Source of the DNA: an uncultured Paracoccaceae bacterium
GTDB taxonomy: Bacteria; Pseudomonadota; Alphaproteobacteria; Rhodobacterales; Rhodobacteraceae
NCBI GenBank assembly: GCA_947489705.1
Contig: CANLEQ010000005.1
Coordinates: 124,001 to 188,000 of the forward strand
Direction: 5' to 3'
DNA length: 64,000 bases
Shown here piece by piece: positions 35,824 to 36,011 of this stretch. Each line of letters begins with the position of its first letter. The first letter of the stretch is position 1. The notes under the pieces were generated by a model. It made no database searches. It saw nothing but the letters and a program-made list of their open reading frames with translations, and was not told where the DNA came from. The position numbers and the translations under genes are program-made.

Positions 35824-35902
35824 ATTCGGTCCTGTCTGCTGTGCCCGTTTGTTCTTTGGCCCAGATTACGGGGGCTTGCGAGTGACAGCAAACATTTAGG
35901 AT

Positions 35903-35930
35903 TTGATCCGCCCGCGGAATCGCTTATAAC
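35903..35930 (+). promoter_or_regulatory. Strong sigma70-like promoter of the candidate sRNA
   Basis: -35 TTGATC (35903-35908), 16-base spacer, -10 TATAAC (35925-35930). It is the best promoter match in the window and is followed within about 55 bp by a terminator, not by a gene. Confidence 0.65.
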
Positions 35931-35936
35931 AAGGGC

Positions 35937-36011
35937 ACTGCTCGATAGGTTTCTTGCCTGTATGAAACCTGCCTCAATGACTTGACGCCCGCCTTGTGCG
36001 GGCGTTTTTTT
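35937..36011 (+). ncRNA. Candidate small RNA, about 75 nt
   Basis: The 327-bp gap between the divergent yejA-like and bdhA genes holds a complete transcription unit with no ORF of note. From the promoter at 35903-35930, transcription should start near 35937. Stem-loop 1 is AGGTTTC (35947-35953), loop TTGCCTGTAT, GAAACCT (35964-35970). A single-stranded linker follows, then terminator hairpin CGCCCGC (35986-35992), CTTGT, GCGGGCG (35998-36004) and seven Ts (36005-36011). This two-hairpin, U-tailed structure fits trans-acting, possibly Hfq-binding, sRNAs. A seven-codon frame (ATG 35962 to TGA 35985) is inside but lacks an RBS. I do not recognise the RNA family. Confidence 0.6.
35986..36011 (+). 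terminator. Rho-independent terminator of the candidate sRNA
   Basis: Seven-base GC stem (CGCCCGC/GCGGGCG), five-base loop and seven Ts. It points rightward, yet no rightward gene ends upstream of it: the nearest gene on the left reads away. Confidence 0.9.

Follow-up and report, generated by a model that had tools for sequence, protein, structure and literature searches.

The window, a 64,000-nt stretch of contig CANLEQ010000005.1 from an uncultured Paracoccaceae bacterium, was found to encode a small RNA (sRNA) of about 75 nt at positions 35937−36011 of the forward strand. This sRNA is real, with folding and conservation that both exceed chance, and the probability that it is the orthologue of StsR is put at about 90%. 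StsR of Rhodobacter sphaeroides is described, in the parts of two reports drawn on here, as a 72-nt, RpoHI/RpoHII-dependent and Hfq-associated sRNA whose binding partners are UpsM and the 5' UTR of dcw (PMC11354728, PMC8625941). The assignment is based on anatomy, promoter and target, with published descriptions of StsR taking the place of a direct sequence comparison, and it was made because of the target, a match in the mraZ/dcw leader.

The unit is intergenic. A promoter of its own is followed by an upper hairpin and then by an intrinsic terminator, and each part lies where the initial annotation had placed it. The promoter boxes, TTGATC (35903−35908) and TATAAC (35925−35930), are separated by 16 bp and precede a predicted start at 35937 (±1). 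The upper hairpin (35946−35971) consists of the arms AGGTTTC (35947−35953) and GAAACCT (35964−35970) around a 10-nt loop (35954−35963), TTGCCTGTAT in the DNA and UUGCCUGUAU in the RNA. The terminator (35984−36011) has a nine-pair stem (35984−36006) that runs into the seven Ts already noted (36005−36011). The minimum free energy of the sRNA was -25.4 compared to -14.6 ± 2.65 for dinucleotide shuffles (z -4.06), none of 200 being as stable. Two overlapping sites were called at the unit by a terminator scan, which proves nothing alone since shuffles of the 2-kb region gave an average of 1.6 sites. Among relatives, the sequence identity starts at the predicted 5' end (35936/35937) in many rows.

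The boxes had been described as a good sigma70 promoter. Their positions were correct, but a sigma70 scan of 35000−37000, using a strict rule that demands T as the final −10 base, returned no promoter. The family consensus was CTTGGA...TATAA, with a spacer one base longer than that of the window; in the named loci, TTG was present in 115/115, CTTG in 101/115 and TATA in 109/115. With the TTG numbered −36 to −34 after Dufour et al. (PMC3441632), a C falls at −37, a T at −13 and an A at −12, which are bases reported for RpoHI/RpoHII promoters in the part of that study used here. The C-14 and T-9 of the RpoH logos were not conserved in the family promoters. The RpoHI/RpoHII promoter of rsp_0557 is given with TTG at −35 and TAT at −12 in an excerpt of a further report (PMC10673084). 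Of two such proteins encoded in the window's own genome, one RpoH scored above the family cut-off, at 369 bits, and the other, RpoH-like, fell short of it with 268 of 323 bits. From its sequence, we infer that the sRNA promoter is probably better explained as an RpoHI/RpoHII type than as a sigma70 promoter.

Lack of conservation in close relatives had been named as an outcome that would speak against the sRNA; instead, a match was found in 384 of 394 family genomes, representing 383 of 393 genera, and in 345 of the 347 near-complete genomes. Eight of the ten genomes lacking a match were less than 90% complete, and a single copy per genome was the rule. When a 141-bp query was searched against 60 relatives, all 36 family genomes were matched, own genome included, and the only match outside the family was to the terminator alone. 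Similarly, a class sample of 289 genomes yielded four matches that included the sRNA body, all from Rhodobacteraceae, and five to the terminator only. At each position of a gapless overlay, the block ACTGCTC...CCTCA was shared by 142 or all of the 143 loci, a figure that is biased by the selection of loci, since 118 of the initial 148 were picked by an exact 41-mer and the remaining 30 came from the top matches to the 141-bp query (five of the 148 were dropped for lying too close to an end). Weak-scoring copies that were picked deliberately mostly retained the core.

A covarying stem-loop had also been proposed as a check. In 16 sequences hand-picked for diversity, the terminator stem exhibited changes on both sides in five of eight counted pairs; five changed pairs were reached in 39 of 500 shuffles, and the covariation score in none of 500. 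The upper hairpin was almost invariant, with 98.4% of cells paired, and has no covariation support because the stem hardly varies. No carriage by phages was detected, as no IMG/VR contig contained the exact 22-mer and no phage record was found. In Paracoccus, the sRNA was also seen on secondary replicons of 1.5−2.2 Mb that are listed as plasmids (NZ_CP035287.1, CP038202.1, NZ_CP038196.1 and NZ_CP038206.1). No feature is listed beneath the match in these four records, which says little, since the one whose gene table was examined is almost unannotated (two features).

The mraZ gene is the first gene of the division and cell-wall (dcw) cluster. In the window species, the leader of this gene contains a site antisense to the sRNA about 200 nt upstream of mraZ. 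Nucleotides 18−34 of the sRNA, comprising the loop and the 3' arm of the upper hairpin, form a perfect 17-bp complement to this leader, and the full pairing region (nt 18−34 and 35−39; 35954−35975) faces positions G000:C12:25435−25458 of the own genome. In the duplex, leader GAGGC-UU-AGGUUUCAUACAGGCAA is joined to nt 18−39 by 17 bp, a 2-nt bulge on the leader side and a further 5 bp. A second leader block, CGAGCAG, lies about 35 nt further on and pairs over 7 bp with nt 2−8 of the sRNA (CUGCUCG, 35938−35944). Of the two seeds that had been suggested, the loop was thus confirmed computationally as a pairing region, while the linker contributes no more than GCCTC to the duplex with the target in the own genome.

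The exact 15-mer complement occurs at only two places in the own genome, the sRNA itself and the mraZ leader. With up to three mismatches, GGTTTCATACAGGCA was found at 32 places compared to 22 for the reversed control pattern, and the next-best place after the sRNA and the mraZ leader had two mismatches. The cofolding gain with the own leader was −27.4, compared to −6.3 ± 2.9 (minimum −15.1) for 57 control stretches, each lying upstream of an ATG triplet picked at random from the window.

The same site was then surveyed across the family. With up to three mismatches allowed, 37 of 50 family leaders contained it and none of the 13 leaders from other families did, in a sample that leans against the hypothesis, as 20 of the 50 leaders were added for a weak or unfound sRNA. 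For the 15-mer AGGTTTCATACAGGC, 21 of the 50 leaders showed no mismatch, 6 showed one, 4 two, 6 three and 13 more than three, and the best match in the 13 other-family leaders had five; leader G030 was covered for 93 nt only. The CGAGCAG block was present within 450 nt upstream of the mraZ motif in 29/50 family leaders and 0/13 others. Among the relatives G000−G023, excluding G003 which had no mraZ match, 21 of 23 carried the site with up to three mismatches. Genome-wide, the 15-mer complement occurred exactly at least twice in 218 of the 394 family genomes; the reversed control gave one hit across all 394.

With 21 family mraZ leaders, the energies of the best duplexes lay between −37.4 and −51.4 kcal/mol (z between −1.7 and −5.7, with mononucleotide shuffles as reference), compared to −21.2 to −39.1 (z +2.0 to −2.6) for 10 leaders of other families. 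The family set comprised 22 leaders, of which L221 was unscored; L164 and seven leaders of the Cereibacter group were left out here and counted in the 50-leader survey, and the 13 leaders from other families were reduced to 10 because the rule applied gave no gene start for three. As the energies of the two groups overlap, it is the site itself that decides. For L180 and L182, the best duplex lay elsewhere than the site.

When each genome's own sRNA and leader were paired, the longest ungapped run, with G-U counted as a pair, exceeded every run in 20 shuffles of each (15) for 18 of 39 pairs and failed to do so for 21 (G402 skipped). Genomes G021, G612 and G636 have an unchanged 33-nt core (nt 8−40) and a leader without ungapped pairing above shuffles. 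In G665 (L248, L273), the own run was about 21−22 Watson–Crick pairs in a slid register that reached the lineage-specific linker; the G665 leader formed 15−18 pairs with the sRNAs of 11 other genomes. This single case is suggestive of co-evolution between the G665 linker and leader sequences. A changed 5' end in G331 was also compared to its own leader and was dropped, as the match was no better than those of shuffles and its position was upstream of where the site normally lies. Since the core is kept where no ungapped leader pairing exceeds the shuffles and the register can slide, dcw pairing alone seems insufficient to account for arms and a 5' end that are invariant over hundreds of genera. 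A tentative possibility, rated somewhat below even odds, is that the sRNA acts as a hub throughout the family and has one or more core targets in addition to dcw.

UpsM is described in part of an earlier study as the terminated dcw leader, with a long leader form throughout Rhodobacteraceae (PMC5089854). In the window species, the mraZ leader (L217 1124−1215, G000:C12) contains a long, GC-rich hairpin, conserved in its apical part GTGGCAGC, and a short T tract; folding of seven family leaders (L217, L155, L153, L175, L179, L184 and L166) showed this strong hairpin and short T tract in every one. The leader resembles that of R. sphaeroides in its strong hairpin and in the antisense site upstream of mraZ. 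It differs in that no terminator was called by the scan, either in the own leader L217 or in the Cereibacter leader stretch L155, and separate release of an UpsM is unsupported in the window species. With no terminator called, the sRNA may act there on the dcw leader itself.

A difference from StsR concerns its published target rpoE, which was unsupported in the window's genus. The model TIGR02451 for ChrR, the anti-sigma partner of RpoE, had no match in the own genome and 13 congeners (0/14), whereas 7 of 10 further genomes of the family gave a score above cut-off; rpoE-like genes may still be present where ChrR is missing. Pairing of the sRNA with five of seven family rpoE starts that could be scored, one from a doubtful gene, gave z values of −1.6 to +1.4, compared to −1.0 to +0.7 for the controls (n=7). 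With no ChrR match in the own genus and no pairing above shuffles in the five starts, rpoE was rejected as a general target. The 0/14 result for TIGR02451 is also an observation on the stress network of this genus, from which the RpoE-ChrR branch may be missing.

The genes on either side of the unit were considered as alternative partners. To the left lies a gene for a solute-binding protein of family 5, termed yejA-like in the initial annotation (34009−35823, reverse strand; PF00496, 213.7 bits), and to the right bdhA, encoding 3-hydroxybutyrate dehydrogenase (36151−36924, forward strand; TIGR01963, 362.4 bits, above cut-off). As had been claimed, the former points away from the unit, and the unit ends about 140 bp before the start of bdhA. 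These neighbours are conserved, the solute-binding protein gene adjoining the sRNA in 105 of 111 named loci and bdhA lying within 700 nt in 86 of 98, as would be expected if the sRNA regulated either gene or were the leader of bdhA. Against this, the terminator stands ahead of bdhA, the sRNA is kept in loci that lack the solute-binding neighbour (6/111) or bdhA (12/98), and its exact complement sits in the mraZ leader. A role tied to the neighbours is accordingly very improbable; a bdhA leader was rejected on account of the terminator and the loci with other neighbours, and the earlier view of an independent, trans-acting sRNA is upheld. The link to carbon or nitrogen uptake that had been drawn from the neighbours found no support, since the conserved target, the mraZ/dcw leader, lies elsewhere. 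A small coding RNA, with a frame of seven codons read from an ATG in the loop, is less probable still, to the point of being negligible. The ATG and the next codons fall within the invariant core, but the frame stops after seven codons in 61 of 118 loci, 55 of the 118 have no stop in the next 20 codons or in the sequence covered, and no ribosome-binding site is evident in the sequence; the mini-ORF was rejected, as its frame is not conserved.

Just upstream of the −35 box, at 35889−35898, a further conserved element was observed with the consensus CAAACTTTT and homologous places in loci L031−L148. It was present in 102 of 105 loci with the solute-binding neighbour and in one of the six without, and may belong to the promoter of that divergent gene.

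The sRNA had been called unannotated, which holds for Rfam: the whole window gave no match to Rfam 15 at gathering score. The best sub-threshold match was to Hrs13 (RF02631; 23.8 bits against a threshold of 52), and SorY (RF02651) reached 18.8 of 111 bits. Both families resemble the sRNA in size and in hairpin-terminator layout, but scores so far below threshold led to rejection of Rfam family membership. Strings of the sRNA core had no match in the open-paper texts searched. Two conserved sRNAs of Paracoccus denitrificans, ‘intergenic 134’ and ‘intergenic 60’, are of similar size in the portion of the report used (PMC5107571), a likeness by description alone from which no identity is claimed.

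Among described sRNAs, however, StsR fits the unit. Under its former name, RSs0827, StsR has earlier induction data in sections of two studies (PMC3413700, PMC3688512); it is also listed for R. sphaeroides in part of a 2026 review (PMC13414033) and cited in PMC11089165. The literature searched, which did not extend to the defining paper (NAR 2021), contained no report of the sRNA outside R. sphaeroides. The two RNAs are alike in being orphan sRNAs of 75 and 72 nt with their own promoter and a Rho-independent end; the promoter of the window sRNA is compatible with RpoHI/RpoHII apart from C-14 and T-9, and computation places its target, like that of StsR, in the dcw leader ahead of mraZ. For the window sRNA this predicted pairing involves two leader blocks. 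The sRNA of Cereibacter flavus likewise measures 75 nt to the seventh T.

It could be argued that the unit is no orthologue of StsR but another, so far undescribed sRNA of the Rhodobacteraceae with the same target in the dcw leader, given that StsR was compared by its description only and not by its letters, and that rpoE targeting was not reproduced. We consider this unlikely, as the unit agrees with StsR in its size, its RpoH-like promoter, its orphan position and its UpsM/dcw target, and genomes as a rule carry a single copy. A member of Cereibacter, the genus in which R. sphaeroides is now placed, has the sRNA together with an exact leader site. The preferred reading remains that the window sRNA is the StsR orthologue.

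For this orthologue, a course of events can be proposed. The sRNA would be transcribed by RpoHI/RpoHII under stress and in stationary phase, as suggested by the R. sphaeroides literature. Its loop UUGCCUGUAU may contact AUACAGGCAA of the dcw leader first, an order that we infer. The hairpin would then open, the 3' arm GAAACCU pairing with leader AGGUUUC, and the free 5' end could pair with the second block, which lies downstream at a distance of about 35 nt. Refolding would expose the leader to RNase E, again by analogy with R. sphaeroides, where Hfq association and RNase E-dependent cleavage of the target are reported for StsR in the parts of two papers used (PMC11354728, PMC8625941). Expression of dcw would drop and division would slow, making the sRNA a stress-induced brake.

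The sRNA is ordinary in kind and useful in reach, being very probably the known regulator StsR. It is near-invariant across 383 of 393 sampled genera and yet has no matching Rfam 15 model. The results suggest that the dcw leader, and not rpoE, is its general target, and the genomes with an eroded dcw site named above are places to seek others. An RNA circuit from stress to cell division that was known from one species would thereby extend to nearly the whole family, with a computed duplex that is open to testing.
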